64,000 nucleotides of DNA from Nemopilema nomurai (taxonomy: Eukaryota > Cnidaria > Scyphozoa > Rhizostomeae > Rhizostomatidae): NCBI GenBank assembly GCA_003864495.1, contig ML133433.1:679283-743282 (forward strand), read 5' to 3'. The position numbers and the translations under genes were made by a program. Below are positions 4,611 to 50,700 of the stretch, piece by piece. Under the pieces are notes generated by a model that saw only the letters and a program-made list of their open reading frames with translations, was not told the DNA's origin and ran no database searches. The stretch's first letter is position 1. Each line of letters opens with the position of its first letter.

Positions 4611-4968
4611 CACTTAAATGAGGCTAGCATGGAAACGAGGCTGGGATGAAGACGAGGCTAGGGCTTTTAGCACCAAAACGAGGCTAGCATGGAAACGAGG
4701 CTAGGACGCAGACGAGGCTAGGGCTTTTAGCACCAAAACGAGTCTAGCATGGAAACGAAATTAGGACAAAATCCAGGCTAGGACGAAAATGGGGCTAGGA
4801 AGGAAACGAAGCTAGGAGGAAAACGAGGCTAGGAAGAAAACGAGGCTAGGAGGAAAATGAGGCTAGGACTTTTAGCACCAAAATGAGGCTTGCGCGGAAA
4901 AGAGGCTAGTACGAAAACGAGGCTAGGGTTTTTAGCACCAAAACAAGGCTAGCATGGAAAAGAGGCTA

Positions 4969-16365: not shown

Positions 16366-16560
16366 AGTGTTAGGGTTAGGGTTTTGGGTTAGGGTTAGGG
16401 TTAGGGTTTGGGGTTAGGGTTAGGGTTAGGAATAGGGTTAGGAATAGGGTTAGGAATAGGGTTAGGAATAGGGTTAGGAATAGGGTTAGGAATAGGGTTA
16501 GGAATAGGGTTAGGAATAGGGTTAGGAATAGGGTTAGGAATAGGGTTAGGGTTAGGGTTA
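16366..16560 (+). repeat. Second 12-bp variant telomeric array
   Basis: This block mirrors the one at 4416-4610. It has a TTAGGG lead-in, about ten tandem TTAGGAATAGGG dimers, and the same exit into a GCACTTAAATGAGG junction followed by the same satellite units. The equal copy number and shared flanks point to segmental duplication of a complete block inside the array, not independent growth of two arrays. Confidence 0.9.
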
Positions 16561-18000: not shown

Positions 18001-18079
18001 GGGTTAGGGTTAGCACTAAAATAAGGCTAGCATGGAAACGAGGCTTGGACGAAGAGGAGGCTAGGGCTTTTAGCACCAA

Positions 18080-19530: not shown

Positions 19531-22327
19531 TGACAGCACACTCTCACTCCACTTTTATACCATATATATAAAACGACATCTCCTCCTCTTTTATGCATAT
19601 GGCATAAATGTAGAGTGCGCAAATCAAGACCTATGAGGACAATTTCTCGCGTACACTGCGCATATATATATTTTGTTGTAATGGCGGTGGTGTCCGCGCT
19701 AGCTGTGGTATGATGCCTAGTGGTCAAGAAATTGCTACCAAGCCTACCGTTCCAGGTTATCGAGGAATCGAAACCAATTAATGTAAGATGTTTTTCATTT
19801 AAATTTTCACTTCTAGTTTAGATGAATTATTTTGTATTTTAACGAATATTGGGCAGGTAGACCTAGACCTAAATGTTGTCAGATCCACCCATTTTATGGT
19901 GGCTCTTTTTGTTTTCTTTCATGATATATGATGTGGATTTTCTTTCATGATATATGATGTGGATTTTCATTAGATACAATTCCATTTTCAGATTTTTTCA
20001 TTTTAGGTTATAAAAGTAATGTCTTGAATTTCAGTTCTGTAGAGCTGTGGTTGGTTAGGCATGTTGCCCCAAAAAACACGTCGTGGAGTGGAGATGGGTT
20101 TCCGAAAGGACACATGGACGCGGATGACGAAATTCGTGGGAATCACCCAGTTTTTAGGACACTGGACAAGCTGGACGTGCAGAAATGTTATTGCAGTTCT
20201 ATTTTTGACTGTTTCGAGACGTTGACTTTAGCATGAAAGATCCTATATAGCTATATGGGACAGTGGACTTTGACTACTGCTAATTGCTTATTATTGTTTT
20301 TGAATTTGTCCCAATGATAAATGATCGATGATTCCCCCTTTTCATTATGCTATTTAAGCAGTCTTGATGCACAGTCTTCATTTCATTTGAAGGCAGAGCT
20401 GTGTGATGTGGGTAGCTGTAAGTCTTGTTTTTTCTACTTCTATTTAGTCTGTAGATGAAGCACTATTTTTTGTTCTTGGTTCCTGTTTTGTTAACATTCA
20501 GGACTATTTTCTTTTCCATGACCATGCTCGAACTTGTATAGATTGTTGTGTTAATAATTAAGTGTTAATAATATTCAAATAGTCTATGTTAAAACTCATT
20601 GAAGTTTTTCGGAATTCTCTGCATTATTTCTCTTGTCCTTTTTTAAAATGAATGTTCACCACAAATCAATTGGTAACAGAATACAGCCAAAATATTTTCA
20701 TTGATTACATTGACATTAATTCTAAGGTTTTTTATCTTGCATAACATATATTCAACACAAGGCCCATGCACCTCACAGAAATTCAATGCTTTACACAAAA
20801 TTTACAATTGCTCTATTGTATAGAAACTTTTGTTTCCCTGGCATACTATTGGAATAACAGGTTAGCACCCCAAGGTTGTGGCTGAAGGATGATTCAAGTG
20901 GGGTCTTATTGAAAACTTTCATAGTTTGCAGACCAATACCCAATTTCTTTTGCGCTTAAATATCATTAAAGGAACTAACATTTAGGAAGCTTTGCAAGGC
21001 AAGCCAGGGCCCCTTGCTTTCCAGTTTACTGATAATCTTCATTGCTCTACAAGCAACTCATCTTTGTTGTTTTGCCATCTTTAGCAAAATCTTCCATTCA
21101 GAGTTGAGTTAGAGAATTCTCAAAATGTTTACTAAGCTTATACCAGCATTGATGTTTTGTTAGAATATATTTATTTCATGTTACTTTGGTGTCTTTAAGA
21201 CTTCTATTCACAAAACTTAGACCTAGGTGTAAGAGTTGTTTAGTATTAACAGTCATAACTAACTGGGAAGACCATGGAGCAAAACTTTTCCACTAATTTC
21301 CTAATTTTAAACCAAAATATGCAGCTTAATTTTTTTAATATTCCAAAATAAAACTTATCACATGTGCTACTCATAGATAATGTAGACTTAGTTGAATTAG
21401 TTTAAGGATTTGATGAAGCCATTTTAATAATCTTCATATTCTACAAATTTGATTTTATAACAAGGACGAGTTTCCAAACTCATCATAAATCACTTATTTT
21501 TCACAATCTTAACATCATTTATATCATAAACTTTGTCAATGGATGAATCAAATGCCATTTCTTTGTACCTGGTTATTGGGGCAGCGAATGGGATAGTGGC
21601 TGCCTGTCTGCAGTTTGGGGGTCCTACATGTGTTCTTTTTTTTCTTGAAACACTGATGTCAAGCTTCGTTTAAGAAGATAACCAGCCAATTGATTAAAGC
21701 AAATTCAAGAAGTAGAAAAATGTACATTACCTTTAGTAGGAATTATAAACTGGATTTGTAGATAGTACTACCAGGCCTGTAAACTCTCCCTGTTTTGCTG
21801 GGAGACTCCTGGACTGCTTGTTTCCCATTTCTACTTTTTTTTGTCCCTGTTTCTTGTCTTTCAGTAGAGGCTTTCTACAAAAATGATTGAAAGGACTTTC
21901 TTCCTGGCAAAGTTTTTTGCTAGTGTTTGCAAATTAATGAAAACATTGAAACCATTATGAAGTTGCTACTTGTGATGATTGTTGATATTAACTTTTTGGT
22001 CTGTTGTTTGTAAATTCCACAATTTCCAGGATCTCTCTGCTTTTTGGCCCAATCTTCCGGTTTTTCTCGATCTGAAATCACCAGATTTTGAAAATTATAG
22101 GTTGATAGGTTGTACTGTTGATACCTTACCTGGTCAAAAATAATTTCTACCAGAAGGGTTGTGTTGACCTTCTCTTGGGTTAGAACATTCAGGATATTTA
22201 GCATAAGATAAACTTATCATCTACCTGATCATTTGTTACATTTTCATATCATAACATCTGATAATAGACTTCAGTCAACCAGTTTTGTTTAAGTTCTCAC
22301 ACTTTATCTGACAGATTTTTATGAAAA
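19531..22327. other. AT-rich unique DNA between array and KDZ gene
   Basis: No convincing gene is seen. It holds a short AT-rich stretch with CATATATATA runs near 19570-19680. A 26-bp direct duplication beginning TTTTCTTTCATGATATATGA lies at about 19912-19964. An exon-like open stretch lies at 20034-20236. The first KDZ coding exon may be preceded by an untranslated exon part starting at 22315, after the acceptor TATCTGACAG. Confidence 0.6.
20034..20236 (+). other. Exon-like open stretch, unrecognised
   Basis: A good acceptor (TTGAATTTCAG) is followed by about 65 open codons containing LWLVRH and ending TLTLA before TGA. I do not recognise the family. LVRH is faintly like the catalytic motif of histidine phosphatases (RHG), but the glycine is replaced and nothing else supports it. 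There is no partner exon and no donor site linking it to the downstream KDZ gene. It could be a gene relic or chance. Confidence 0.2.
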
Positions 22328-25300
22328 ATGGATGAATCTGAAAGTGCAAGGAAGATACCATTCCTGAAATCTTATGATGAAGGTAAATTTTACTTTTTGT
22401 TAGTTATGATGGTATGAAGTGAACAAATTCTACATTCCCAGGACCGAATTGTCCACATTTTGAGAAATACTTCTTGATATTGTCTATGCACAATGCTGCT
22501 TCTTGGAGCTCTTGGTTTTTTGCCATAGCCTCAGATTTAAATATAGTTTCAGATGATTTTATATATTTACACGTCAATACAGGGAAGCACAAAAGAAGAA
22601 GGAGGGGAAACAAAGAAGATGAACTGTTGAAAGTGCAAAGAATGGCGGGTATTGCAAAGAAAAAGCCAAGCAAGAGAAAATCTACTGTGTATAATACAGC
22701 ATGGAACCCTTATATTACAAAAAGAACTGTTTCTAGAAAAGTGCCTCGAAAATCAGCCAAAAATAGACACGAAAGTATGTATTCTTTTTGCCATCAAATT
22801 TGTTCTATCAACTAGTTTTTATAACAGCTCCTGAATCAGTTAAACTTCTGAGCTAATTTTAACTTTTTCTGAACTGCAGGGCTTTCCTTGCTTTGCACCA
22901 ACAGGTCTATTACTAATCCAGTTGCTATGCATGCTCAGAGTTAATATTTCTCATTTTACTTTTCGGAATGTTTTCTAGTTCCTCAGAAAAATTGTGTGGT
23001 TCTTTTGAAATAATATGCACAAACATAAAATGTGGTTTGATGAAAACAATTGAAAAATTCTTATACCAAAGGTCTGAGGAACAAAATCAGACTAAGAATA
23101 ATTGAAAACACCTCATCTTGGTGCTTCTAATCTAAAGTTTTACTCTTGAAGGCCTTAGCCCACCAGATTCCTTTGAAGAAGAACAAGAATCATTGGAAAG
23201 TCATGATGACTATGAGAATATATTGGATGGTATTATTTTTTTTTAATTTTGTATAAATGTACTACCATTTGCTTATTCCTAAAGACAATTTTTGTCCAGT
23301 ACCTGTTATACTGGTGCCATTCTAAAATCAATGTAATATCTAGGCAAAGTTCCATCTATCAATTGTTCTATTGCTTCATTTATATATTCAGTCTATGTGA
23401 AACTGAAGAGGAGGGTGAATGCATTTTTAAGTCACTTTGTCAGGAAAATTTACTCATGTATTTTTTGGATTCCTTTTGTTGTTCACTAATCCTTTACATT
23501 CAACTAGCATTTTTTACTATAACATTATAGACTACACTTGTGGTCAAATATCACCTCAAAAGGTTGAATTGCATATTTTGGTTGCATCTTTCTGTAACTG
23601 AAACTTGCAGTGTGACCTGCAAGCTTAGTGACTTGGCAGAGTTAATTTAGCAAATATTGTTGTTGCAGATGTTGCTTTGGAAATTAGGAACTGCCTAAGC
23701 CTAATCGAGGTACAACAACCAACTGATAGAGCCAGTAGCAACTGGGATCTACGACTGAAAAACACTGCCTCTAGTTGGGAAGGTCAACGTGAAGTAATTT
23801 TCAAAGCTACTCTTAGCAGATTCGCAGAATATGTTGGTGAATGTCAAAATTGCCAATCTCGTCCTGCCACCATAAAATGCAGTGACTGCAGTTTCTATCA
23901 GAATTTATGCTTCATTTGTGATGACATAATGCACAATAGAGAGCCATTTCATGACAGAAAAAGATGGCACGATAACTGTTATAGTCCCATTGCTGCTACA
24001 GAAGGGCTGGATGCAGTCAAGCAAATAATCAAGAAAAGTAAGTTTTCATTCCAATACAGATAAGAGTGTTTTTTATTCAAGTAGTGAACTATTCACTTTT
24101 TCATTTGCAATGAATAAAATCTTTGTTTGCATTGAAACCCCCTAATCAGGTTTTCTTGCGTTGCGCAATTTGCTCTTGGGATGCTTTACCTTTACCTTAA
24201 ATTCTCACTGCCTTTTCAGAACTTTCCATCATTTGCAGACCTGAACCTTACTCTCCATTCTAGATGATAATGTGCTGTAGAAAAGAATTGTAAATAGTAC
24301 TTGTTGACAACACATGGAAATGTTTTGTTTTAATTCAGATTTCGTATGTACAATTTTCTTATTTCTATAGGATTCATATAGGACTTTATTTATCAAATAT
24401 TATCTATAGATCATATGCCAACAAAGAGGGTGTTTTTTTCCAGAGAGAATGGTCCATCTTTATTTGCATTGCTGTAAAGACTGTGGGTCAGAAAATATTG
24501 CAAGACGCCATTAGATGAAACATGCATTGTTATAAATTGCAAAGGTATTTTTTCCATTTCCATTTAGTTTGTGCAGCTAGTAATATTTGCCCTGTAACAA
24601 GTCTTTTTATCAAGATTTTGTCATGCTCTACAGGACCATCTTCTTTAATAGCTTGATACCACTTGCACTTTTAAAATCTTTAAGTGAAGAAATTTATATT
24701 GCTAATGATCTTTATTGATGTTTTGATGTTTCTCACACCAGGAAGATTTGACATGAACAAGTACATGATCACATGTGATGACTGCCTTGCAGAGTTTGAT
24801 CCATTCAATATAGAAACATTGGTTCAGTCTGGTTATTGGCCTGGAAGCATAAACACCTGCAGTTACATTTTCCACCAAAGTGTTTTTCGACTCTGGGATA
24901 CATTCAACAAGAGAATGCCTGGTTCTTCGGAGATGAGCTTTGTTAATTCATTGTGTGACCTATCGGCAGAAAATGGGAGGGTAAATAATGTTAATCTTTT
25001 TTGCATGCTATTGATGGGGGTGTTTGAAAATTTAAAGAAGTTCAAGGATGCAAAGAGAGCACTTTAAATCAGTATTAGCTTGGAATTTTTCAAGAAGCCT
25101 TCTTTTTAACCTCAATTTTGATAGAATGGTACAAAAATCCAATTGTTGAGCACTCATTTATGTCATTAGTTTTTTTTGGTTAAACAAAGAAGTATAAAAA
25201 TTGGTTCTATGGTTTCATTTTATATACTATGATGTATCTAACTGCATTACATCCTTCCCATATTAGGAAAATGTCTTAGGGATGGTTCTACATGTTACCA

Positions 25301-28300
25301 TTCTACTTCTAGATTTCAAGAATAAATTGGAAATTGTTCTCAACATCCTTCAAAGAATGGAAGTATTGTCAATATGAAATTGATGTTCTCATGGGGAAAG
25401 ACTGGATGACTTGCCCTTGCTGCGCAATCAGCCAACATTCATGCCATGTGGATGGAAATTGCAAGCTATACCGGTATAAAAGTGCTGGGAAGTAAGTAGC
25501 TACAACTTTACAATAATTGGTAATTGATGCCAAAAAACAGATAAGATGGAGAGAATGCCATAATAATCACAGTATGGCATAACATTTCTTTGTGAGTAAT
25601 GCAACATTTTTTCACAAATTTTGCATTTTGGGGGATTTTTTGTGCTCATATTATACCAGAGAAGCAGGCTACTCGCAATATTTTTACCCTTATGCAATTT
25701 TAAAATGTTGGTTTTGTTTTCAAAAATTAATTCTTGCATCCACTTCAAGGAGAAAATAACTGTAGTTTCACAAAATGACATCTTGTTCTATTGCACAGTG
25801 TCCCATTAGCTTTTGTTTTGATGTTCCCCAAAGAAAAACAACCAAGGTTGAAGTCTTGATAACAACCTAATCTAAAATTATTTCAGTTTTTATCTTCTTG
25901 AGTAAAACAGTATACAGAATGCTGTTTTACCAGGGAATGCCCTTTTCGATTGAAACATTTTGTAAAATTTGTGACCATTTTTTTTTCATTTTAGGCGCCG
26001 TTCAAATAGCTACTACTCAAATGAATTTATTGAGGAAAATCAGTCTGTTGATGTGCTTTTGCAACAGATTTATGCAAAGAATGGAAACAGCGAAAGAGCT
26101 GTAAGCATTACCTTACATTTTGTCATTAGCAAATTTTCCAAAAGATCTTTTGATTATCTTATACTTCCTTAGCAATGAAAATCTTTTATATATGACCTTT
26201 GAACCTTTTTATGCTATTAGGGTATGTCGGATAATAACTGTGGCGGCTCTTTCTGGAAAGCAGCATTAAACTTTGGCAAAAAGAGGGGTTCGCTTGATGA
26301 AACTGGGCTTGAGCTGGCAAGCTGTCGCCATAGCATTGGGCAGAAGGCAGTCAACATGTTCCAAGGAGAACTTTATGGATATGCTTTATACATTCAAAAG
26401 AATTTTATGGTTCCGTGGGGTAAAGTTCTTTTGGTGTGATGTTGTTTGCAAATATTGGCCATGGGTGAAGAGAGTGCAACCAGAGCTGACAACTTCAATG
26501 AAGCCAGCGTTATCATTAATGCATGCCAAAGGTCATGGTGTTAGCTGTCAGGTGAGTATTAATGATATTTTTTTTTAATTTCTGGAGTTATTTTAATTTT
26601 GTTACAATACAGTGCAGTGCTGCATGGGACCTTATAACTAGATTCTATATAGTGAATCTATTCTAATTATTCTAACTTCATATTTAAGTTTCTATTTCTA
26701 ATTTTGATGAGAAAATGTGAGGGGAGGTATATTTTTGCAATGTACCATTTATGATGCATGCCTTTGATTTTCAAATCGTCTCTACATAACCAGAAGTTAG
26801 TTGTGGGTCTTCCCTTCAGGTAAAATTGTCATTCCATTATGGTAGAAAGTCATTTTCTGTAATTGTTTCAGGTAACTTGGGATGGAGAGTGGCAGGAAGG
26901 GGCTGCCAGGTCAACTGGTGAAGAGGTAGAGCAAATAAACAGCTACCTATCCCGACTGGGAAGTACAACCAAACATATGCTCCCAGAAAGTAAGTTTAAG
27001 GTGCAATTATGTCTAGTTTTAAGGACATAAGATAGGAATGAGTGATTTAGGATGGAGCACTTTCAGAAAAGGATTTTCTGTGCTCAATTTGAAGTATATT
27101 TATGGTAACTTCTTTTGATTGAAATTGACAATAAGATTGTGAAAAGAATTCATTTGTTGTGGTACACTTCACTTGGAAGTTTGAAAATTAAAAAGGCTCC
27201 CTTTTTAATGAAAAGGACCCCTTTTGTATTTTTATCAAATGCAGTATATGTTGGTAGAATTTTGTATTTGGCATTAGGTAGGCTGCTGCAATGCAGCACT
27301 TGCTGGAACCAGTCCATTTTCAGGAATTTCAGAAAAAAGGCATGTTTCTCCATCAATTTAATGAATAACAAAGGACATAAGATATGTTTTTCTTTTGGTT
27401 TAATTATAACTTCTTACATTAATGTATGGTTTTATACGCAACATGTTATGGAAAGGACAAGTAGTGACTTCACTGGTATTATGCAAATTGAAAGGAATCA
27501 TGTATATATGAACTAAATAATGATTGCATTTTAACTTTAGCTCCTATTAAGTTAATCAATAATGTTGCAGATCGAGAGGACTATCTGTCTGAGCATATGA
27601 TGGGCTGGAACAGGCGCAAAATTGATAAAATGCCAGTTGATTTATACAAACGCTACAAAAGGGTATGACTCTATAATTTTGTTTTTACAGATTGATATCT
27701 TAAATGAATGTGATATATTTTACTTGCTGATTGTTTAATTTTTTCCTCTTGAATGCAATTATATATGTAATTACGTTTGCTTTATTTGCTTTCTTTGCAG
27801 GCTAAGCGTTTGCATGAAGAAACTGTATCAGACCTTGCCAAAGAACTCAGTGATATAAACATAAATGAAACAGATCTGGGAGAAAAATCTTGGCAAGAGG
27901 ATATCAAACTGCTAGCACTGGGTAAGTAGTGATGACTTTTTGTTACATTTATGTTGATTTTCATTTTGGTTATGTTTTTATAGCTTTGATTATATAACAA
28001 TAAATGACTTTATTCCCATTTAGGTGCCAATGAGAAAATTTCTTTCAAACTCACCAAATGTGAGGAACTTGTTTTGCTGTTGAATCTTTTACGCTCTACA
28101 AACAACATCCCAGATAATGCTGACATCCCTGTAGACTTGAATAATGCTGTCATTCCAGTCCTGGACGGTTCATCACTGACTCAAATTCCTAAGTCAGAGG
28201 AACGTAAACAACAAAGGTTCATGGAACTGCTTGGGTTTATGCAGGCAACACCAAGTAACAACTTCGAGGCAGCAAAATGTAATGTTTTGCAGCTATTGAA

Positions 28301-30136: not shown

Positions 30137-31323
30137 CTGTGATGATCTGGGACCAAACTTCAACAACTACCTTTGACTTACTAAAAAGCTCTTTTAAAAT
30201 GCTGCTTAAATAATTGATTGCTTGTAATCTTCTATATATTACGATCATTGATTACTCTACACAGAGTTTATTCATCTAGTTTATTCAACATAAAGTATAA
30301 ATGTATTTATGTTTAATCAAGGTCAAATTCGATCAAGTAAACTCATGCAAAAGTACATTTCTGTTCTCCAGCGGAGTCATTTTTTATTCATTATTAGTTC
30401 AAAGTATGTTTTTGTAGCCATTTCTTAAACAGAAACAATTCAAGAAGCTTCCCGATTCATATATGTACAAGTACCGTGTTTTAACTAGAACTTCATTCCA
30501 GGGTCACAGAAGAAACTAGCCGATGAAACTTGACATATTGTTAAACATATAGGAAACTATTTGACCATTCGTCTTTCACCGTAGCCCTATCGATAATAAA
30601 AATCGCTCCGTCTTGATAACTGCGAGAGGATTCTTTGCTTTTGAAAGGGATATAAACTGTAGGATGATAGTACAGTGATGCGAGCATATTTATTGAATAA
30701 GTGTTATATTTTGTATTAGTTACTGCGCTTTAAAATACAGCAGACTGATTTTGTTAACAGCTTGTCCATAACTTTTTGCCTTTATTCTCCTATTTCCATT
30801 ATACTACGGACTGAACCATTTATAAATGAATGATGCTAGTTCTACTGGTAATATTTCATTTTACTCATCTACTGTACTGAGTTCTTTGCAGATACAACTA
30901 GCGTAAACTTCTAGTACTAGTTAGTTGCGTATTACATATGATTATTTACTAGATTACATATACGAGTTAATTACTACTGTACTACTACTACTTGGTGCAC
31001 CAAAACATGAACACATTTAGTAATTGATCAAGAAAGTGCTCCTTACCACCCATAGGCTCAACAGTGCTGAATTTTGTTCAGAAAAGTTTTGAATATCAAA
31101 TCATGAATATACTTATCATTTTAAAGATAATTCGATATAAGTTCTACCTTCAAAGTCATTAAGGGAGTCGCCAAATTAAGTAGGTGAGGAAAACTTGATC
31201 ATGAAATGAAATTCTCCATTTTATTAAACTTGAATTTTTTCCTGCTGACCAATTTTCATTTAAAATTTCTGTTGGAAATTCAATGAAGAAAAGTTGGATA
31301 AATCCTAAATTGTGATTAGGAAA
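30137..31323. other. AT-rich spacer after KDZ gene
   Basis: No gene is seen. It probably contains the 3' untranslated region of the KDZ gene; an AATAAA lies at about 30594-30599, but AT-rich context makes this weak. Nothing resembling a terminal inverted repeat matching the upstream side was found by eye. Confidence 0.5.
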
Positions 31324-32739
31324 CCTGTCTAAACATGCAGATTTCCGATTTTACGAAGCGAAACATGGGTGTACCTTGTATGGTGAACTTCAAAAAATGG
31401 TTCGGGTGACAAAATCATCTCAGAAAGTGAATTGACGAAAAAATCCTGTCTAAACATGCAGATTTCCGATTTTACGAAGCGAAACATGGGTGTACCCTGT
31501 ATGGTGAACTTCAAAAAATGGTTCGGGTGACAAAATCATCTCAGAAAGTGAATTGACGAAAAAATCCTGTCTAAACATGCAGATTTCCGATTTTACGAAG
31601 CGAAACATGGGTGTACCCTGTATGGTGAACTTCAAAAAATGGTTCGGGTGACAAAATCATCTCAGAAAGTGAATTGACGAAAAAATCCTGTCTAAACATG
31701 CAGATTTCCGATTTTACGAAGCGAAACATGGGTGTACCCTGTATGGTGAACTTCAAAAAATGGTTCGGGTGACAAAATCATCTCAGAAAGTGAATTGACG
31801 AAAAAATCCTGTCTAAACATGCAGATTTCCGATTTTACGAAGCGAAACATGGGTGTACCCTGTATGGTGAACTTCAAAAAATGGTTCGGGTGACAAAATC
31901 ATCTCAGAAAGTGAATTGACGAAAAAATCCTGTCTAAACATGCAGATTTCCGATTTTACGAAGCGAAACATGGGTGTACCCTGTATGGTGAACTTCAAAA
32001 AATGGTTCGGGTGACAAAATCATCTCAGAAAGTGAATTGACGAAAAAATCCTGTCTAAACATGCAGATTTCCGATTTTACGAAGCGAAACATGGGTGTAC
32101 CCTGTATGGTGAACTTCAAAAAATGGTTCGGGTGACAAAATCATCTCAGAAAGTGAATTGACGAAAAAATCCTGTCTAAACATGCAGATTTCCGATTTTA
32201 CGAAGCGAAACATGGGTGTACCCTGTATGGTGAACTTCAAAAAATGGTTCGGGTGACAAAATCATCTCAGAAAGTGAATTGACGAAAAAATCCTGTCTAA
32301 ACATGCAGATTTCCGATTTTACGAAGCGAAACATGGGTGTACCCTGTATGGTGAACTTCAAAAAATGGTTCGGGTAACAAAATCATCTCAGAAAGTGAAT
32401 TGACGAAAAAATCCTGTCTAAACATGCAGATTTCCGATTTTACGAAGCGAAACATGGGTGTACCCTGTATGGTGAACTTCAAAAAATGGTTCGGGTAACA
32501 AAATCATCTCAGAAAGTGAATTGACGAAAAAATCCTGTCTAAACATGCAGATTTCCGATTTTACGAAGCGATACATGGGTGTACCCTGTATGGTGAACTT
32601 CAAAAAATGGTTCGGGTGACAAAATCATCTCAGAAAGTGAATTGACGAAAAAATCCTGTCTAAACATGCAGATTTCCGATTTTACGAAGCGATACATGGG
32701 TGTACCCTGTATGGTGAACTTCAAAAAATGGTTCGGGTG
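31324..32739. repeat. 121-bp tandem satellite, 11 full copies plus a partial
   Basis: The unit begins CCTGTCTAAACATGCAG and contains CGAAACATGGGTGTACC and GGTTCGGGTGACAAAATC. Starts fall every 121 bases from 31324 to 32655; the last copy stops after about 84 bases. Copies are nearly identical. Variants sit at the ends: a C-to-T in the first copy, GTAACA in the copies near 32375 and 32496, and GATACATGGG in the last two. This pattern fits homogenisation of the interior. 121 is not a multiple of three, so the 61-residue open frames on the minus strand are by-products. Confidence 0.97.
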
Positions 32740-35320
32740 ATGATTACGATGATTATATGGACGCCGAAGGGGTTGAGATTTATATCGAGAGATACCGTTC
32801 TATTTGAAAATAAGGGTTATTGATCAATCCGGATTTTAAGCAATCCTGTTTGGCCACATTTTTGCTTTGTTTTGTTATACACTGGGTTAGCAATGTGAAA
32901 ATTACAGAATGAGTTGCTTGCAGAATGAGGCAGTTAAGGGCAATTTGAGGATTTGCTGTAAAAAAATTTCTGATGAGATTTAGCGCAAACTTATAAAAGG
33001 TGCGCAATGAGAGGGATATACATGTATTTTGCAATTGAAAGAGACACTTCGGTAGCTAAATGTTTTTAAGTATAGTGATAAGTAAGAAGTTCGTCAGTTC
33101 ATTCGCTAGGACGGACCAGATTATTCCCCGTAAATTATTGAAAATGTTGAAGAGCCTTTACATAAAGTGGATTGGATGCAGCGGATCAAAAAGAAGACCT
33201 AGCGTTGGGTGGATGTGCAAGGTAAAACATGATTATAACACAAGATCCAGAACATCCTATATAACCTAAAAGTCAAATCAAATCCAGTTTGATGAGATGG
33301 AAGAATCCAGCAACTTGGACACAAATTCCTACATTACATTTTAGTATAATTGGGTGTTTCAGACTTTGGTTTCCCATTGACTACTGGATTCGAATACCTT
33401 CAGTTCCATATGCAGTATAACTCGGTTAAAGCGCACTTTAAGGACCAGTGGCGTCAGTATGTTGTTTCCAAAGTATGTTTTAACCAGGGTATGTAGAATC
33501 AACTTGTAAACAAATGCAATTATATATATGTAACGCTTTCAAATAAATTCTAAAAAGCTCAATAGTTGAACGAAGTCTGTAAAGCGTTTCTGAGTATCAA
33601 AGTGTTGTTCACTGTTGCATCAGCTTTGTTCAGCTTTTTCATTGTTTCGTTGGTATTAAACAAATCCAAAAGCGCTGAAAATCATTGTAGAACTTGACAG
33701 GCATTTTAATAGATCAAAGAAAGAATAAAATCACAAGATGGTTGAGGTGTCATTTATTCCTATGACAGATGGCACCTTAAGAAATTCCTGAAATTGTGAC
33801 TTAACACATTGGATTTTTAACAAAGAAGACAGCTATATCCTGTTGTATTTGTTTAGAAGGGTCGCTAGAGAACTCCTACCAAAGGTCATGTTCTCATCGA
33901 CTACACACTAAAGGGCCCGAGGATGTGTAGAGGGATGGGTGTGACGGAAAGATATCCGGGTTTGCTATAGGCAATATAATAACCTAAAATCATAATTTTA
34001 AAAGAATCTAGCCGGAAATTTTTAACATTTGTAGTGTTACGAATTTAAAAGTATGAATTAAGAGAATAGATGGAAAACACAAAATATTTCTATAAAGTAT
34101 CATAGATCAAATGCTAAACTTTTGCTATAGAAGAAGAACGTAGTTGATATTTACACAAAAAACTGGAATCTAAACAGGAATCCAATTGTTTAGAGTGGAA
34201 GATAAGGTCACGTATGTTCAATCCAAAACAGCATTCATTCAATTCATTTTTCAAATACATCGTTATCAAGTTACTAGGCGATAAACTCTGCTCTCAACAT
34301 TTTGCTCACTCTGAGAATCAGGTTGAGGATGGAGATAAAAACACTGCAAATCATGATGCTGTTTTGAAATGTTCCATAATTGGAATATTCGAGTAGTTTC
34401 CATTCATATGTCTCAAATGCAGCGCAAATACTTAATAAATGAGTGGAGATTTGATAATAATTGCGAAAGCATTAGGAGAACAAAAAGAAAGCATTTACAA
34501 AATACAATTTTCAATGCGTCCGGTTCTATATAATGAAGACACTAAAACAGTTATATTAACCATAAGTATCTAATTTATAAACACCAGACACCAGAAACAA
34601 TCGTGTTTCGTTTTGAGGCAACGTTAATAAATTACACAGAAATGCTTATTAGAGATCAGAATTGCCCAGCATAGCAAATTTTACAAAAAGGTGTTACGAA
34701 AAAGATTGAAAAGGGCTTTGAAGAAAGCAGACTTTTGAGTGTACTGAAGCTTTTTCGTCTGATACTCTTCAGAGAATAAAATGACAGAACATAGACCCCA
34801 AAGGCTACGCTGGGAAGTATATATACCCAGCTGTGGATGGAAATAGGCCAAACAGAAACGCAAGCACATGACTGTTTGAAGTTGCCCAGTTAGTTCCGCT
34901 CATTTATTGAAGATGTTACCAGTGGAGTCCTTAGGTGATAACAAACTCCTTCTGTCAACACGAAGCGGTGTTTCTGCATAAAGATTCCAAAACCGTTAGA
35001 TGGAACGAAATAAGGCTTTGCCAATAATCCGAAACTTATCGCCATTACATTTTTTGCAAAATCTGGGTTTTCGAGAAAATGCTGATCGATAGCGGAATGG
35101 CATGTTTTGATAATTGTTTTTGATCCGCAAGACCGAGTAGGCTGTTCTCTTTGGGGAAAAGATTTAACTTAATCCTGGAAGGAACATGTTGTTTTTTAGA
35201 CTATTAGAAAAATAATATTTGGAAGTAAAGAAATTCAAAGCCTTTTCAACACAAGTTGTGTACCCTCATACGTGTTCCTTCTTAGACTGTCTCGCGGAAA
35301 CGAATAAAAACAGCCGACAG
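32740..35320. other. Intergenic spacer between satellite and PCMTD-like gene
   Basis: No supported gene; the short open frames here have no recognisable content or splice context. It lies between the convergent 3' ends of the KDZ gene (plus) and the PCMTD-like gene (minus). A TTTATT at 34912-34917, which is AATAAA on the minus strand, could be the polyadenylation signal of the PCMTD-like gene, about 400 bases beyond its stop. Confidence 0.5.
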
Positions 35321-35497
35321 TCAAAGTTTCGTTTTCTTCAACTCCAGGAAAAAAGGTCGGGGCCTCAACTGTTCCGGATACTGCGAGAATTTGCACGCAG
35401 ATATGGTCATGACGTATGTCATGACCATGCAGAACACGCCGATCATAATGAGGCACTCCAACTGCCACACAAATGCCATCTTTAACATACGAAACAC
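35321..35497 (-). CDS. Terminal exon with membrane span
   Basis: After the acceptor TTCCATTGCAG, phase 0 gives 58 residues and a TGA. Residues 13-35 (LECLIMIGVFCMVMTYVMT and on) form a hydrophobic segment long enough to cross a membrane. It is preceded by VFRMLKMAF and followed by a basic, proline-containing tail ending KKTKL. Coming after a coiled coil, this looks like a tail anchor. In phase 2 the same exon gives only RCFVC and a stop; phase 1 is open for longer but has no hydrophobic span. Phase 0 requires the GCA/GTGAGT donor of exon 10. Confidence 0.6.
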   Translation of the reverse strand: MFRMLKMAFVWQLECLIMIGVFCMVMTYVMTISACKFSQYPEQLRPRPFFLELKKTKL

Positions 35498-38400
35498 CTG
35501 CAATGGAAAAATGCACAGTTATACCAAGGGTCAATCTTAAGATAGGGCAAAAACAACGCACATTTCATTGATACACAACAAAAGTTGAAATCCACGTCAA
35601 ACTTAAGTCAGTGCTAGCCTTCTCGAACAACCCGCGACGTTGACTCCTCTGCAACAGAAAAAGAAGCATATGTTAGTTCTAAGATCACTTCAAAAGAAAG
35701 CAGACTTCATAGATACACAACAAAAGTTGAAATCCATGTTAAACTTAAGTTAGTGCTTACCTCCACCAGCAACCAGCGACGTTGACTCCTCTGTAACAGA
35801 ACAAGAAGTGTGTGTTACTCTTAAGAACTTTCAAAACAACGGAGATTGGTTCTAGATACAACCAATGGTAGAAATATACTCCACATCTACTTAGGGTTAC
35901 CTCTCCTCGCTACTTTCGGTTTCTTCTTTTCTGTAACGGAACAAGAAGCATGTGTTAGTTCTAAGATCACTTCAAAAGAAAGCAGACTTCATAGATACAC
36001 AACAAAAGTTGAAATCCATGTTAAACTTAAGTTAGTGCTAACCTCCACCAGCAACCAGCGACGTTGACTCCTCTGTAACAGAACAAGAAGTGTGTGTTAC
36101 TCTTAAGAACTTTTAAAACAACGAAGATTGGTTCTAGATACAACCAATGGTAGAAATATACTCCACATCTACTTAGGGTTACCTCTCCTCGCTACTTTCG
36201 GTTTCTTCTTTTCTGTAACGGAACAAGCATGTATTAGTTCTAAGATCACTTCAAAAGAAAGCAGACTTCATAGATACACAACAAAAGTTGAAATCCATGT
36301 TAAACTTAAGTTAGTGCTAACCTCCACCAGCAACCAGCGACGTTGACTCCTCTGTAACAGAACAAGTGTGTGTTACTCTTAAGAACTTTTAAAACAACGA
36401 AGATTGGTTCTAGATACAACCAATGGTAGAAATATACTCCACATCTACTTAGGGTTACCTCTCCTCGCTACTTTCGGTTTCTTCTTTTCTGTAACGGAAC
36501 AAGAAGTGTGTGTTAGCTTTAAGACCACTTCAAAAGAAAGCAGACTTCATAGATACACAACAAAAGTTGAAATCCATGTTAAACATAAGTCAGTGCTTAC
36601 CTTCTCCAACAACCCGCGACGTTGACTCCTCTGTAACGGAACAAGAAGCATGTGTTAGTTCTAAGATCACTTCAAAAGAAAGCAGACTTCATAGATACAC
36701 AAAAGTTGAAATCCATGTTAAACTTAAGTTAGTGCTTACCTCCACCAGCAACCAGCGACGTTGACTCCTCTGTAACAGAACAAGAAGTGTGTGTTACTCT
36801 TAAGAACTTTCAAAACAACGAAGATTGGTTCTAGATACAACTAATGGTAGAAATATACTCCACATCTACTTAGGGCTACCTCTCCTCGCTACTTTCGGTT
36901 TCTTCTTTTCTGTAACGGAACAAGAAGTGTGTGTTAGCTTTAAGACCACTTCAAAAGAAAGCAGACTTCATAGATACACAACAAAAGTTGAAATCCATGT
37001 TAAACATAAGTCAGTGCTTACCTTCTCCAACAACCCGCGACGTTGACTCCTCTGTAACGGAACAAGAAGCATGTGTTAGTTCTAAGATCACTTCAAAAGA
37101 AAGCAGACTTCATAGATACACAACAAAAGTTGAAATCCATGTTAAACTTAAGTTAGTGCTAACCTCCACCAGCAACCAGCGACGTTAGAGTAACAGAAAC
37201 TAGTCACTGCTCCACAAATATTAAACCAAATACAGTTCAGAAATATCGTTTGGAGCAAATTATTGGTAACGTTGCCTGCCTAAAACCTCTTGTCTACGCC
37301 ATACAAGTAGATAGTCAATAAAATCTACATACAATGGCTTCAAAAAATGTAAGAAGTCTTCAATATAATTCGCCTGAAAAATACATTTAGGACAAAAACT
37401 GGTCCAATATGAAAGCTAAAAACATCAAAACTGGTATTCTGAAGCATCCTGTTTTCGCGCAGAAACAAAAAAGGATATGACGTCATAAAAAATACCTGTA
37501 CTTCCTGGAACTACTCGTTGTCTTCCCAGAATCACTCACTGCCTCGCTGAGATTCTCAGAAGACGTCATACTTGCTAACTGATCAGCGCAACCTTCGTTC
37601 AAAGCCGTGAGCTGGTTCACGATATCATTCGACTGTTTCACGCATTTGGCGAATTGGTTCAGTTTTCCATTTGCATTCTCAAGGTAACGAACACCCATTT
37701 TTAGAGACGAATTGCGCTCTTCGACTAGGCCATTCTCTAGCCCTGTCAGCTGCCGGTATATCTCTAGGAGGGACTCGTGTTCCGCAAGCTTCTCTTCTCG
37801 CTGCTTTTTTATTGCTTCCAATTGTTCTGATAACTGCTTCTTGTGGATCTTTCGCTCCTGAATCATTTTCTCCGTCTGCAATAGCGTCTGACTCCATTCT
37901 GCTTCTGCCCCTTTCACGCGCAGTCTCGTTTGCAATAGCTGATGTTGCTCCTCCACAAGGCCAACCTTAAACAGAGCCATCGCAATTAGTTATAATGTTA
38001 GTTAGCGGTCAAGCAATTGTATCTGAACAATTTTTATTTGAAACGCTCTTGCTTTAAACGGTAGCAATAAGTTTTCTTCAGTCCGGAAGCGCATTATTGC
38101 CCTTAGCGGTCAAAGTAAGAACAAGCTTGATCCCTTAGTAAAGGAACATTATCTTATGAGATTCAACATCAGAAATAACTAAATCTCCGGTCGACTTCGG
38201 GAGCCAGACACAAAACAACTTTCAGGAGATGGCCTAACACAAGAATCTACTTTCATGTGCGCAAGCACATGACGTCATAAAATAATAATGAAATATTACT
38301 ACAACTATCTCACCTCAAAACTACAGAAAACTGTCTTAAGGGGAGCATTATCAAAGCCAAATCCCCCCTCCATCAATGTAGTAGGATTGTATGTAATAAC

Positions 38401-44400: not shown

Positions 44401-47400
44401 TGACCTTCGATGCCACGTAATGATGTCATTTACTTATAAACAAAGTTACAATGGACAATACGACAAAAGTGGTTTACGTGTCCGCATTCAAATGGTCTTA
44501 AAATGCTTCTAGAAAAATTTCACTGGGATTGCGGTGTACCTTGTTTCCGCAATTTGGGTTCTCCTTTGACAAAATTTCAAAATATATACCGCGTTAGTCA
44601 AATTGCACTTTCTCAATGCGGATGAATATTGTAGCCTATGAAAGATGAATTTGATCGCTTTTCCCGCGATAACACATCACGTTGTACAAATAGAGTGAAA
44701 ACCCGCAAAATGATGCTCTCAATGGGGATAAGAAAACGCTTCGACTTCAGTAATGGCTGACTCATTCGGATTGAAACTTTAAAACCCTTTTGACTCAAGA
44801 ATCTAGAAAGAGACAGATATTGGACCGATGTGGCATTCTTTCCGCTATCTTTTAAATCACACCATTTAAGTTTAACATTTCGGCTCCTACTTTCCTTTGC
44901 CTGCTGAATAGATAGTCATATCATTCAAAATTCACTTTGCACTGAGTTATAAACCGTCAGACAGAAACTTGTAAAGTGAAGTAATAGCATTCATTTAAAT
45001 ATCAGCGCTACTCTCCTACGCAGCTTGGCCTCTGAGAGGAAGTCCTTGTAACTGCCTTACAACAATGACATTTAATTAATTCATGACGCACCCTATTCAC
45101 TTCATTCGGAATCCTAAACAAGAGCCGTAGTCAACCCAATAAGCGCCTCGGGCGTTTATCCTTTTAGCCGAAGATTTACTAGGATATCTATTTATGCAAA
45201 CAGAGCACATGTTTTGGCAGACATCTCCTTGAAACGTGACTACCACCTTATGGTCAGAACACCTTTAACATTAAATGCATCCTCTCTAGGCAACTACTCC
45301 ACTTATACTGAACATACTTCTACATATATCATAAAAGACTTAAAACACTGTCATACCTTCCTTATTTTCTTTTCACTTGTGTCCGGGAATCGCAGCCTTG
45401 GCAGTCTCAGCTCCTCCGAAGTGGCGAGAACGAGTGGCGCAAAGGAGACGTCATTGATCACCGACTGTCGCCCTTCCTTTAGCGATACTCGCTTGAGCTT
45501 CAACAACTGGAGGGAGAAAAGATGACGTAACAACACACGTAATTAATGGCACTATGAGCAAAAGTAGGCTGCATAAATATAACAACTACATTAAGGCGAA
45601 TAACTCCATGCTGAAACATGCGGAAAACATAAGGACGAGTTTCTTATTTACAAGAGACTTTTAAAACAGTCAATGCGAGAACCAATGGTCGAATCTGGCA
45701 TTGACATGTTTTATGTTGGTAACAGTGATTATAACCTTAAAACCAACTTCAATGTAATCACTTCCTACTCTGAATACCAAATATCACTGACATATACTTA
45801 ACACTCACAAGCTAAATTTTCAAAAATCTGTTCATCATAATGGCATCTCAAAGAGTATTATCACCAAAAAGATCTGCATAGTGTGATACATTTTCATTAA
45901 AACATTCTGCTTTGAATAACATGCTACCCAGTCTCGCAGATTTAAAACAGATTTTAACAGCTTTAGAGATGCAGCTTGCAATTCACTTATCTAGCGATTA
46001 AATAGGAGACCTCCAAGTCCTGTTACTCACTGAACATTCATTAACAAAAAAACTCACCCTAAATCCAACAGGTGCAATCAAGAATCCCCCAATTTTGACC
46101 ATTTTAAGAAAGAACTTGACAATTGACTGAGTACAAGCAGCTCCACAGTAAAGCCTTAGAGTGATAAAGTATATGCATAATAAATATAACTTGCTACCAA
46201 TAATAATTTCTGAATGTTCCAAACATAAATTAATGAGGCCTTCATAGATCATTGTATTAATAAAACTGATTGAAAACAGAAGAAACATTTTTGCTTAAGG
46301 AATCTGAGAAAATTTCTTTACAAATAACCAAAAACATGTCTTTAGAGTTATAAAATAATTTCCAATAAAGAGAATTGGGGTTGAAAATGAATATTATCAG
46401 AATCTAAGATTGTGAATTCCAAGTAACTTAATTTCCTATATTACAATTAAAAGCCATAATGTGAAAATCCATTTATAAAATGAAAGCTTTTCAACCGTCT
46501 ACTGCTCTAACTTTAGAAGAGTATAAAGGAAATCAACTATAAAAGAGGTTACATTATAGCTCTGATTTTCAAAAATTGTGCTCAAGTTGGCAAGGTTGAA
46601 AAAGCCATGTCATTATAATCTAAATTGCCATTGTTTATGCCTTTCTTGAAGAAGAAGAAATTTGCCAAGGTTATACATTAAACATTGATTAAATATTGAT
46701 ATCATTCATAAACTCTTCAATACATCAAACATTAAACACTTTGGGAAAATCCTACAAGCATGTGCTTAAATAAATTATAACATTAAGAAACTGGAAAAAT
46801 ATTTACCTGTCATATTTCATTTGTTCAGGATCAAGTCTGCAGGCATTTCCACAAATGAACACAGGAGGGCAAATGTCTTCAACATCAACAGGACCATTTT
46901 GAAGAAAATTTGCTACTCTGTCATTAGCAAAGTTTACAAGGTCTTCATGCATTTCAATACCATGATTGATACCATCCTTCTTAATTATGTACCCAGCCAG
47001 AGTTGAGAAATACCCTGTTCCACTGCCAACATTCAGGAATGACATACCTATAAAAACATGGATTTGTAAGCAAACAAGAATGAGTACAAATGCAAATGGT
47101 TGAATGAATTTCAAGATTCAAAAAGCCAGAAAATCACTGTTAACAATTTCTTGCATTTAACTATCATTGGAACCAATTGCCTTTTAATTGACATGGTAGC
47201 TCAACTCTAAATTGGCAAAGTTTTAAAGACTTCAAGACCTGTATGTATTATAGTTATATTTAATTTCAATCAAACCGGGTGGGTCTATAGAAATGAACAC
47301 CAACCAAAGTTTAAACCTGCTTTTAGTCTTAAAGCTACAAAAAAGTATAAAATTACTATTGTGTTGTGTTGAACTTTTCCAACAGAACTCTGTATCTACA

Positions 47401-47717
47401 TTACATAAATGAGGCAAAAAATATTGCTGTTCAAGGTGACATTAATATCATACATACTTCAAAAAATGAAACTTACCAACATCTAGATCAAGCTCTTCAA
47501 AAATAGCTGCATACATGTGAGGAGCTGAAAGATGCACATGATGGCTACCTCTGAGTGGTGTGTCCTTGAAAGCATCTTCAATAAGATCATCAGGGACAAA
47601 TGCAGCTCTGGAGACACATCTAAATGCTTTCTCGACCTCGCTTGACTCTATTATTCCGAGACGAGTGAATTTATCAACCATTTCCTGATTGTTTCTTGAG
47701 TAGGAAAGCCACTCCAT
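35321..47717 (-). CDS. PCMTD: PCMTD-like methyltransferase with long C-terminal extension
   Basis: Exons in order: 47477-47717, 46807-47047, 46058-46154, 45357-45506, 44238-44292, 43461-43696, 40559-43067, 39744-40101, 38709-38845, 37540-37965, the mini-exon array, then 35321-35497. All phases chain (the seventh exon only if two missing bases are assumed), giving about 1540 codons plus 10 per mini-exon. Residues 1-243 match isoaspartyl methyltransferase-domain proteins: HLSAPHMY at 62-69, SAM motif LNVGSGTGY at 85-93, GINHGIE, YCGA and VSFAPLV. PCMTD proteins are usually about 350 residues and are thought to act as ubiquitin-ligase adaptors more than as repair enzymes. Here a further ~1240 residues follow: disordered Ser-rich sequence, a conserved-looking helical block, a coiled coil and a C-terminal membrane span. 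A merge of two adjacent genes cannot be excluded; the phase continuity across exons 4-6 argues for one transcript. Start chosen at the ATG matching the family N-terminus; an acceptor CCCACAG lies at 47740. Confidence 0.7.
35619..37051 (-). repeat. Tandem array of eleven 30-nt mini-exons
   Basis: Units of about 137-142 bp each contain a 30-base exon flanked by a C/TTGTTACAG, CCGTTACAG or GTTGCAG acceptor and a 5' splice site. On the minus strand, 5' to 3': A' 37022-37051, B 36880-36909, A 36740-36769, A' 36601-36630, B 36459-36488, A 36322-36351, B 36183-36212, A 36043-36072, B 35901-35930, A 35761-35790, A' 35619-35648. Types A and A' start AGGAGTCAACGTCGC; type B starts AAAAGAAGAAACCG. Introns of about 110 bp are also copies of one another. 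Being 30 nt long, any number can be included without changing frame. In phase 0, A reads RSQRRWLLVE, A' reads RSQRRGLLEK, and B reads KRRNRK then stop. In phase 2, B reads KEETESSEE. A twelfth copy at about 37164 has lost its acceptor. Confidence 0.8.
37164..37200 (-). pseudogene. Degenerate first mini-exon
   Basis: This is the 5'-most copy in transcription order. It keeps the type A body ACGTCGCTGGTTGCTGG and a GTTAGC donor, but the acceptor and first exon bases are replaced: TTCTGTTAC runs straight into TCTAACGTCGC. Without an AG it cannot be spliced in as the others can. It marks the upstream edge of the array. Confidence 0.7.
37540..40101 (-). CDS. Exons 8-10: helical block and coiled coil
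   Basis: Exon 8 (39744-40101) encodes a Cys-containing helical block with DVLARRGIVLRRLAEVLDS. Its acceptor is the second of two overlapping AGs in TTTCAGAG, chosen because it keeps phase 0. Exon 9 (38709-38845) and exon 10 (37540-37965) form a heptad-rich coiled coil, with repeated Leu/Gln/Glu spacing as in EKMIQERKIHKKQLSEQLEA. Exon 9 has an exact 18-bp internal duplication encoding KLNLYD twice. Exon 10 has two plausible donors: GCA followed by GTGAGT (phase 0, strong) and TACAG followed by GTATTT at 37496 (phase 2). The choice fixes the reading frame of all downstream mini-exons. Confidence 0.65.
38383..38410. repeat. Perfect hairpin, 12-bp stem with 4-base loop
   Basis: AGGATTGTATGT and ACATACAATCCT flank the loop AATA. 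Related GGATTGT and GAATCTACATTTAA pieces recur within the next 110 bases. It lies in the intron between exons 9 and 10 of the PCMTD-like gene and may be a remnant of a small inverted-repeat element. Confidence 0.8.
39061..39350. repeat. Degenerate ~46-bp tandem repeat (ATCAATCAATCAAC)
   Basis: Units contain AATCAATCAATCAAC followed by TTCAACGCATAATCAA or TTTGATGCATATCA, repeated at about 39091, 39138 and 39183 and then decaying into CAATCAA-rich sequence. It lies in the intron between exons 8 and 9 of the PCMTD-like gene. Confidence 0.75.
40559..43067 (-). CDS. Large exon 7 of PCMTD-like gene, two apparent frameshifts
   Basis: A 2509-base exon enters after acceptor TTTTTTAG and ends at donor GTAAGT. 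The first part contains KLSTDKTWFEVLEHYYSLC, a compact helical-looking segment, then KRVSVGDSKGD and DDNDLAEDFLAAV. The rest is Ser/Asp-rich and probably disordered, ending with an LYLSRKDKTSSH segment. The frame breaks twice: a stop at 42297-42299 just after a five-base homopolymer (42301-42305), and another switch near 42080-42105. Between them the third frame is open and reads as similar Ser/Asn-rich protein. With two bases restored in number, the exon is exactly 837 codons and keeps phase with both neighbours. I do not recognise the function of this region. Confidence 0.65.
45357..47717 (-). CDS. PCMTD methyltransferase domain exons (1-4)
   Basis: Four exons encode the Rossmann-like SAM-binding fold. 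Exon 1 carries the helical N-terminus and the family signature SAPHMY. Exon 2 carries LNVGSGTGY and GINHGIEMH, the ligand-binding loop and the acidic residue after strand 2. Exon 3 carries YCGAACTQS and KIGGFLIAPVG. Exon 4 carries NDVSFAPLV. These align in order with vertebrate PCMTD1/2 from memory of the family. GINHGIE is typical of the PCMTD branch, so the call is PCMTD-like and not the classical repair enzyme PCMT1. Donors and acceptors are canonical GT-AG throughout. Confidence 0.85.
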
Positions 47718-47739
47718 TGCTGATGAGTTGAACTTTTCT

Positions 47740-50700
47740 CTGTGGGCAAGTGATGTACATGAAGAAATTAATCCATGTTATTTAAAACTTTTGAAGATAA
47801 TGTGATCTATACTTATTAAATTTCTAACTACATCATCTAAATACATCTACAATTTTTCTCTCATTTTAACCCCATTTTGCACTTTGCATGATTCTTTATT
47901 CTAAATCTAGTCAGTTCTACTTTAATATATTTCTTTGAATTCAGTTTTACTTGAACTCTACTCAACCAGGCAAATGCTGACATAAGGAAAATTCTTTCCA
48001 TAAGGGTGCTACCCAAGTTCATCTTCTAATGTTCTTCTAACGTTATGTTCATCTTCTTATTCACATTTCATTAGACTTCCCAGTATGCTGTTTTTATTCT
48101 TACAAAGTCCAGACTATCTACTGGCTGTCCACAAAAATACCCAATATCATTAACATTCTAAAAGCTGCAACTAATGAAGCTACAAGAATTGACTAATAAA
48201 AAATCAAATCAAAAATTAAAAAACATCTTATTGTTAGCAACTGGAACACAAATGTTTGATTATATAATGATCCAGAGCAGTTGATTACAACTCCACAAGC
48301 TGTCAAATTACAAAGATGTCATTAATCTGGTATAGGCATGATAAAAGCACAAGCTGGATACATGAAACTGTCACAGGTTGTTAATAGATTATTTAGGATA
48401 TGTGTTTGAAAATAAAAGTAATTAAAAGAAGGCATACAGCTAAAATGCGGTTGGGTATGAGTTTCAAAACAAACAGACTTTATGAGGATAAAACCAAAAT
48501 CTTTTATTCAAACTGACTGGCTTAGAAAATTATCTTGCAACATTCAGTGAGTTCAAGTGAGTGCAAGATTGCTACATAGAGCCAGGAGTCTGAATTCTGT
48601 AAGTGCAACCTTTGAATTACAATTCTAAAAAATTCATCAATTAGCAATTCAACCATTATATAAAACTAGAATTCCATCACACAAATTTTTCAGCTTCTTT
48701 CCTTGTCTGGCCTTTACAACAGTTTAAGAGGACTTTACTAAAATGACTTAGAAAATCGTGCAGCTTTGCATTATAAACCCATGATTGATTTACAATAATT
48801 TCAATCGGTAATCTTAATCATATTAACGTTGTGCAGTCTTGACTTTATTGAAAGATTGAAAAAAACTTCCTAACTAGGAAAATATCTTAAGCTGTCTCTG
48901 CAAAACTCATTTTTCTTCAGTACTATAAAATTTTCCTCCAACAAATGATTGCAAGTTGATGCAATCAAATCACAATCTGGTTCTTCAAATATGTTTTTGA
49001 CGTGCGAATGGCACCGTTGCTATAGATGTATCCAAGACTGGAAAACTCTCGCAGCATGTTGGAAAAAACAGTTAGACGGCTATATAAGACTCAGGTGTCT
49101 TCAAAGTCTATTTCTTGTAAGCATTAACAGATTTGCCTAAATAATTTTTCTAGAACCAAATGGGAACAACACAATGTTCCTACCAAAACAAATGTGGTAA
49201 TATCGGCCTTTACTAAAGGGATTGGACCGCGAACGCCATTCAACCCATGCAATATTGAGTAAGCAGAATCGGGACACTCTTACCAATCAAACTTGATATC
49301 CTTTTTAATGTATTATGTTTGTCCTGCTATCCATTTTTTCCTGTTTCCGTCCAGAATTTGCAGACCAATCCATCTCTCATCATTTTCAACCATTACACGT
49401 CTATCGGCAAATTCATGATTGCAACTTGAGTTTGCGCAGGACCCTACCTCGTACTGAAAATGCTAGTATAACCTCGTTTCAGTTGACAATCATGTTTGGT
49501 ATTTTCGTTTCAAACAGTTTTTCATTTCCTTTTGCACCGAGAACGCAGAACCTAAGCTTGCCCTTACCATAAAAAATTATCCAATTAAATATCACTTAGG
49601 CTTATTCAAAAACATGAATTTGAAGCTAAACTTCTACAAGTTTTGCTATAAGACCATGATATTAAAAAATTTTAAATCACATCATCAACAACCAAGATGC
49701 CAAAGAAAATCATCCAAGAAAAATTTTATTTTTTTAGCAAAACTTTCTTCTTTACAGTGGCACACACAAGCAAATGGGGGGGGGGGATGCTTTCTTCCTT
49801 CATTTTTGTAAAAAATTTGCTATTAGCCTTTAATTAATTTTAATAAATTTCAAGTTTTCGATTATGCTTTCAACGTGGTAATTTTAGCTTCTGATTATCC
49901 CCTTCGCTTTGAATTTCTCTTTCTCCTAAGCATGCAGAGCAAAAAATATTTCGAACTTGTTGGCAGGCTCAATCATTGTGTCGGAGACTTTTTCAGGCAA
50001 ATTGAAATTAATTGCATTCCAGATAGAAAATGAAGACCACGTTGTTCAAAGCAGGTGACTGCATTTACCATAGAGTCGTTTAAGAAGAGGCCATTTGCCA
50101 TGCTTTAAAACTGGTATCATTGTCCATAATGACTTCACTTGGATGACGACTTGCACCAAATAAAATGGGCCCAGCTATTGACTTACTCGCATACAGACCA
50201 CCAAACAGGCTAATTGGTTGCTAGCCTTATATTTGAATTGAAGCTGAATTGAAATCAAAAACGTCTATGCAACTACCTTCATAGCTATTCGTGGTACTAA
50301 TTAATTCCCGTACAATGAGATTAGTCATTTTCTTTGCTAATTTTCTGTAAACGCTATAGCCAATTAAATGACTTCTGCTATAATATATTTTCACCTTTAC
50401 TCGATTCTCCTGTTAAATATTTTCTAAGACAATCAAAGGAATGTTCGAAAGTTGAAAAGTTAATTGTGTTCTAAATTTTTTGAACACCTCAGTGATCAGA
50501 AAGTGCGCACTAACATATATTTGTAGATTGTAGATTTAAAGCTTGTAAGATCTCTCTTATGGGAAATCTTTTTCAAATGGGGGTTTTTAGAAGAAACAAA
50601 TAGAGAAAAACTGTTTTCTAACAATTCTCGAAGTAAATTTGAAGCAGACTTTGCCATTCTCAGAGAAAATTTATCGATCAAAAACCTTTTGACGGATACA

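Follow-up and report, generated by a model that had tools for sequence, protein, structure and literature searches.

An array of 30-nt exon-like cassettes in the scyphozoan Nemopilema nomurai is probably the 3′ part of one member of a multi-copy gene family, which has been cut and joined to an unrelated chromosome segment and is likely to be a broken copy. The array lies on the minus strand of a 64,000-nt stretch of DNA (the window in what follows), which corresponds to 679-743 kb of contig C67 in a 213-Mb assembly. Among the evidence for this reading, the cassettes share a single reading frame with the exon that follows them, related arrays of very different length occur at other places in the same assembly, and the sequence changes its affiliation at the 5′ end of the array. 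Below, contigs are named only by the handles used in the analysis, and position numbers are those of the window unless a contig is given.

The cassette array and its reading frame

Read along the minus strand from 37051 to 35619, all 11 cassettes are exactly 30 nt long, and each stands behind an AG acceptor (Table 1). The introns separating them measure 107-112 nt and the last intron 121 nt. The cassettes fall into two sequence classes, A/A′ (n = 7) and B (n = 4), with 10 of the 11 matching their class sequence exactly and the last one carrying one mismatch. The preliminary description of this DNA had reported eleven 30-nt mini-exons, one per repeat of about 140 bp, and this is what we find, the units being 137-142 bp long. 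It had also given every unit an acceptor and a donor, which holds for the AG acceptor in 11 of 11 units and for a GT donor in 10, the last donor being GC. The strict alternation of A/A′ and B that it described has to be given up, since the order along the array is A B a A B a B a B a A (a stands for A′), with the classes interspersed. Because the cassettes look like in-frame mini-exons, with lengths that are multiples of three in 11 of 11 cases in the window and in 56 of the 60 units compared across loci, any subset of them would keep the frame, as had been proposed.

Table 1. Features of the window. Features on the minus strand are read from the higher to the lower position, so that each cassette starts at the higher of its two coordinates.
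Feature	Position	Strand	Remarks
PCMT-type methyltransferase exons	46803..47777	-	in the C116-type segment
Coiled-coil-like ORF	37483..37989	-	in the C116-type segment; outside the array gene of related loci
Junction	37186..37188	.	boundary between C116-type sequence and the duplicated array block
Broken twelfth unit, class A′	37164..37193	-	acceptor gone at the junction
Array of 11 intact 30-nt cassettes	35619..37051	-	137-142 bp period
Cassette 1, class A	37022..37051	-	EESTSRVVGE; donor GTAAGC
Cassette 2, class B	36880..36909	-	EKKKPKVARR; donor GTAGCC
Cassette 3, class A′	36740..36769	-	EESTSLVAGG; donor GTAAGC
Cassette 4, class A	36601..36630	-	donor GTAAGC
Cassette 5, class B	36459..36488	-	donor GTAACC
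Cassette 6, class A′	36322..36351	-	donor GTTAGC
Cassette 7, class B	36183..36212	-	donor GTAACC
Cassette 8, class A′	36043..36072	-	donor GTTAGC
Cassette 9, class B	35901..35930	-	donor GTAACC
Cassette 10, class A′	35761..35790	-	donor GTAAGC
Cassette 11, class A variant	35619..35648	-	EESTSRVVRE; GC donor (GCTAGC)
Terminal coding exon	35235..35497	-	(G)VSYVKDG...LVLKRL*, phase 1 like the cassettes, 86 residues
Duplicated block common to C70 and C2	22000..37186	-	compared at 22000-26500 and ~29.3-37.2 kb

Splice sites were scored with generic consensus weights untrained on this species, and they were ranked against the 2683 AG and 2408 GT sites on the minus strand of the window from 64000 to 20001. 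By these generic weights the acceptors of the cassettes fall at percentiles 97.0-99.9 of the AG sites, and the donors at 99.6-99.8 for GTAAGC (n = 4), 97.3 for GTAACC (n = 3), 96.3 for GTTAGC (n = 2) and 88.9 for GTAGCC (n = 1); the GC donor of cassette 11, ranked among the GT sites, reaches 60.7. When one A unit was shuffled 2000 times by mononucleotides, no shuffle gave a 30-nt cassette with a weaker site as good. The donors of B and of some A′ cassettes score below those of A, so that, to go by these scores, B and some A′ cassettes may be skipped more often than A.

Only phase 1 is open across A, A′ and B and on into the terminal exon. In phase 0 there is a stop inside class B, and in phase 2 all cassettes are open, but the terminal exon is closed by a stop at its fifth full codon. 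The phase-1 product of the window would consist of 11 × 10 residues followed by GVSYVKDG...LVLKRL* (an asterisk marks a stop), in which A and A′ give acidic peptides (charge -2 each) and B a basic one (charge +5). Three query proteins, two of them composites and the third the terminal exon, gave 0 families in a Pfam search at E 10, and a PDB sequence search with the terminal exon gave three chance-level matches, the best with an E of 0.93. Single-sequence fold prediction of the 86-residue terminal exon had a mean pLDDT of 36.4, too low to be of use. At the gathering scores, no Rfam match was found in the window.

Other repeats are present in the window as well. Among the repeats listed, a degenerate 17-bp repeat (AAAACGAGGCTAGGACG), which includes TAGGGT/TTAGGG-like blocks, occupies about 18-19 kb of positions 1-19000, an extent judged from base composition; this stretch looks subtelomeric, yet it lies inside a 2.25-Mb contig. 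An element of about 50 bp at 47968-48019 occurs on many contigs among the matches listed.

Related loci and the state of the family

Arrays of the same kind occur elsewhere in the assembly, with 21 units on C70 and with 11 and 10 units at two places on C2. On C143 whole gene copies stand in tandem: eight repeats of about 4.87 kb hold four cassettes each, repeats of about 2.9 kb hold a single cassette each, and a further place on this contig holds two. The loci form a multigene family in which the repeat number varies from 1 to 21 units. What is repeated head to tail is a putative exon, so judged by its splice sites and frame, together with its flanking intron, in 11 intact units in the window and in 21 on C70. 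The C70 array contains two copies, 984 bp apart, of a seven-unit block with the order a A B A B A B.

Sixty units were compared: 11 from the window, 21 from C70, 11 and 10 from C2 and 7 from C143, the last being 4 of 32, 2 of 6 and 1 of 4 cassettes in three stretches. Their length is 30 nt in 55 units, 27 nt in one, 28 nt in one and 29 nt in three, one of the 29-nt units being additionally without the G of its acceptor. Four of the 60 would shift the frame, and assembly indels could be behind some of the units that are not 30 nt long.

On the 5′ side of their arrays, C70, C2 and C143 have sequence in common among themselves, none of which, in the stretches compared, is shared with the window at 46000-37150. 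Exons in this region were called by eye. Open stretches on C70 that have plausible splice sites read KCLSCFKENAIRC...SKR and INALHQWQ...DFKG (the latter ends at GTATGT), and before the array on C70 and C2 there is a 57-nt acidic exon, GEENELDVDEDIGESAENE(G), which is entered and left in phase 1 as the cassettes are. The second 5′ exon is shortened in both C2 copies and in the C143b copies read, and its frame is intact in one of the three C143a copies read; the third 5′ exon runs to a stop without a donor in the C143a copies read, and its GT is gone in the two C143b copies read. A resemblance of these 5′ exons to zinc fingers of the THAP or SWIM type was considered and dropped, Pfam giving no match.

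C67 and C70 have the same terminal exon, with no difference between them; at the protein level, identity is 94% at each of the C2 places and 71% in the two most complete copies on C143. Among the nine C143 terminal exons translated, seven are shortened (3/3, 1/3 and 3/3), including those of the three translated 4.87-kb copies, which are reduced to 49 codons. With one copy taken per locus set, the dN/dS of this exon is 0.42 for C67 or C70 against C2 (87 codons; dS only 0.049, hence few changes) and 0.43 against C143b (87 codons; dS 0.344). It is 0.46-0.53 for the other pairs of C67, C70 or C2 with C143a and C143b, and it rises to 0.86-0.96 when C143 copies are paired with each other or when the C143c copy, of 35 codons, is involved. 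Judged from these exons, damage is widespread in the family and, among the members read, slightest on C70.

As the units of an array are not independent, tests of constraint on the cassettes are rough. Between loci outside C143, class B differs by 0.3% in the exon, 4.5% in the intron before it and 0.8% in the intron after it, and class A by 10.3%, 22.4% (two intron types mixed) and 7.2%, respectively. Between C143 and the other loci the exons differ by 13.5-13.8%, as much as much of the intron does. In 17 class B units outside C143 (one with indels was dropped), 1 of 30 exon columns is variable versus 15 of 145 columns in the flanks (Fisher p 0.31); for class A, again leaving out C143, the corresponding numbers are 8 of 30 in the exon versus 17 of 47 in the intron after it. 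Eight variant 30-nt class A alleles show 14 distinct single-base differences from A, 11 of them residue-changing, 3 silent and 0 giving a stop, which is about the same as the chance expectation from all 90 single changes of A (58 residue-changing, 25 silent and 7 stop). Purifying selection was thus looked for on the cassettes and was not significant, and in these comparisons the cassettes do not clearly appear more conserved than the introns.

This last result, together with the damage in many copies of the family and the four of 60 units that would shift the frame, would be expected if the 140-bp repeat were satellite-like and its cassettes relics, no member being spliced or translated now. 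We consider this rather unlikely, since most units have strong splice sites (by the generic weights), all of A, A′, B and the terminal exon can be read in a single frame, and the dN/dS of that exon is about 0.42 in the fullest comparisons. For the window copy itself, such a reading overlaps with the one we prefer.

The junction at 37187

The two sides of position 37187 have different relatives. On one side, window 52500-46500 corresponds to C116:33231-39227 at 99% and window 40700-37188 to C116:44948-48465 at 99.1%. The window tracks C116 as far as TTACTC, and from AACGTCGC, an A′ cassette, onwards it is array. On the other side, the window matches C70 and C2 at 99% over 22000-26500 and at 96.5-99.2% over ~29.3-36 kb. 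Within this side, a tandem repeat of about 121 bp at 31321-32740 is visible as offset matches to C70 and C2. At the matching place C116 has no array. When the 5535 bases of C116 past the join were searched against the assembly, only four short weak matches were found elsewhere; the ORFs of this part (C116:48466-54000) resemble a HECT-type ubiquitin ligase, which they may encode. C116 may be the alternative haplotype, or else a distinct copy.

Since C116 matches one side and C70 and C2 match the other, the coiled-coil ORF and the PCMT exons belong to one segment, and the array and the terminal exon to another. To judge from these matches, the window array appears to have been joined to an unrelated chromosome segment and to belong to a different gene family than the coiled-coil ORF and the methyltransferase. 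The preliminary description had tied the array to the methyltransferase gene; the PCMT exons, however, lie across the junction on the C116 segment (99%), which is without an array, and a single gene comprising methyltransferase and array was rejected on this comparison. A tie to the coiled-coil ORF is likewise unsupported, as the ORF stands on the same array-less segment and the related loci differ 5′ of the array. The window thus holds a caution: adjacency on the same strand suggested one gene, but the rest of the assembly shows two unrelated pieces.

We take the junction to be real. It is unlikely, in our estimate, that it is a mis-assembly and that the array is in truth still attached to 5′ exons of its own, as on C70, a possibility compatible with the other readings. 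Beside the join there is a 9-base word, TTCTGTTAC, common to both parents, which we judge too short to mislead an overlap assembler, although a chimeric read still could. Suspicion is raised by the presence of both halves elsewhere in the assembly at about 99%, and by one- and two-base indels in near-identical units, which suggest an imperfect consensus in the repeats.

Less probable still is a functional fusion: the rearrangement would have allowed the coiled-coil gene to splice from 37495 into the cassettes and so to gain a protein tail of variable length. The coiled-coil ORF, which sits between the PCMT exons and the array, has a candidate donor, CAG/GTATTT, at 37495 that ranks at percentile 97.5 by the generic weights, and entry in phase 2 would leave 11 of 11 cassettes open as RGVNVAGCWR / RKEETESSEE repeats ending in CFVC*. 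That phase, however, differs from the one running on into the terminal exon. Moreover, the ORF is nearly unchanged on C116, where no array follows, and it has its own stop (RKYRYFL*) just past the candidate donor, so that no splice is needed. A still bolder version, in which a recent rearrangement captured the array and thereby gave rise to a newborn coiled-coil fusion with its tail in the previously unused phase 2 and its length set by cassette number, seems to us highly improbable, even if the C116 form without the fusion means that such a fusion could be caught at birth.

The reading that we favour, that of a family member cut within its array and joined to an unrelated segment, can be outlined as follows. 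In a small multi-copy gene family, a short exon and its intron would have been amplified as a tandem repeat of about 140 bp, with two exon classes, acidic A/A′ and basic B, interspersed. The array would grow, shrink and be homogenised via unequal exchange or conversion, which would account for the range of 1 to 21 cassettes among related loci. An intact member would splice in its phase-1 cassettes, either all or a subset, and so encode a repeat domain of variable length, placed between the acidic 19-residue exon and the 86-residue C-terminal exon. In the window copy, a rearrangement would have cut the array within its 5′-most unit and joined it to the unrelated segment; this copy would thus be without its own 5′ exons, and it is probably non-functional as a gene.

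Comparison with known exon arrays

The preliminary description knew of no described equivalent of such an array next to a methyltransferase domain. Tandem genomic repeats with a short exon in each are known from Schistosoma mansoni: in its SmPoMuc genes, a 27-bp exon with its flanking introns forms tandem genomic repeats of about 1 kb, in up to 20 copies (PMC2576457). These genes form a multigene family, with 1 to 20 repeats in each gene, the exon classes r1 and r2, and clusters at several places; they evolve in concert, and some are probable pseudogenes. Transcripts, which contain 1 to 100 repeats, and proteins have both been shown (PMC2576457). The two systems are alike in having a short exon in a tandem genomic repeat, a differing repeat number and distinct exon classes. 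They differ in that the SmPoMuc unit is about 1 kb with microsatellites whereas the unit of the window array is 137-142 bp; that the SmPoMuc array is near the 5′ end whereas the window array stands directly before the last exon; and that the SmPoMuc exon classes are for the most part confined to different gene clusters whereas A/A′ and B are interspersed in one array. Further, SmPoMuc is known from transcripts and proteins, and the window array from DNA sequence.

The micro-exon genes of Schistosoma are alternatively spliced and contain numerous very short exons, most of them divisible by three in length, and introns of 100 to almost 5000 bp (PMC10526429, PMC4015677). Secreted products are reported for them. 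The window array is like the micro-exon genes in its very short exons with lengths mostly multiples of three, and differs in its introns, which span only 107-112 nt. To our knowledge, the exons of micro-exon genes are not generally one repeated unit. Tandemly repeated 81-base exons encoding repeats were reportedly found in S. mansoni by Davis et al. in 1988, going by the title of that work. In tropoelastin, one kind of domain is lysine-rich and the exons are of one common phase; these exons are diverged and are not known to be near-identical short tandem copies. Two kinds of domain alternate in this protein and are mostly encoded by specific exons (PMC8875079). The window array is like tropoelastin in its two exon kinds, and unlike it in that near-identical copies stand in a short tandem repeat. 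The architecture of these putative exons is one already known, SmPoMuc-like, and the 140-bp unit and the two interspersed classes of opposite charge set the present array apart from SmPoMuc.

If the fuller relatives of the window copy are transcribed, they would provide a further case of a protein-length repeat that arises from whole exon-intron units and not from a repeat within one exon. As places with 1, 2, 4, 10, 11 and 21 units are found in one assembly, the growth of an exon array could be followed directly in this family.
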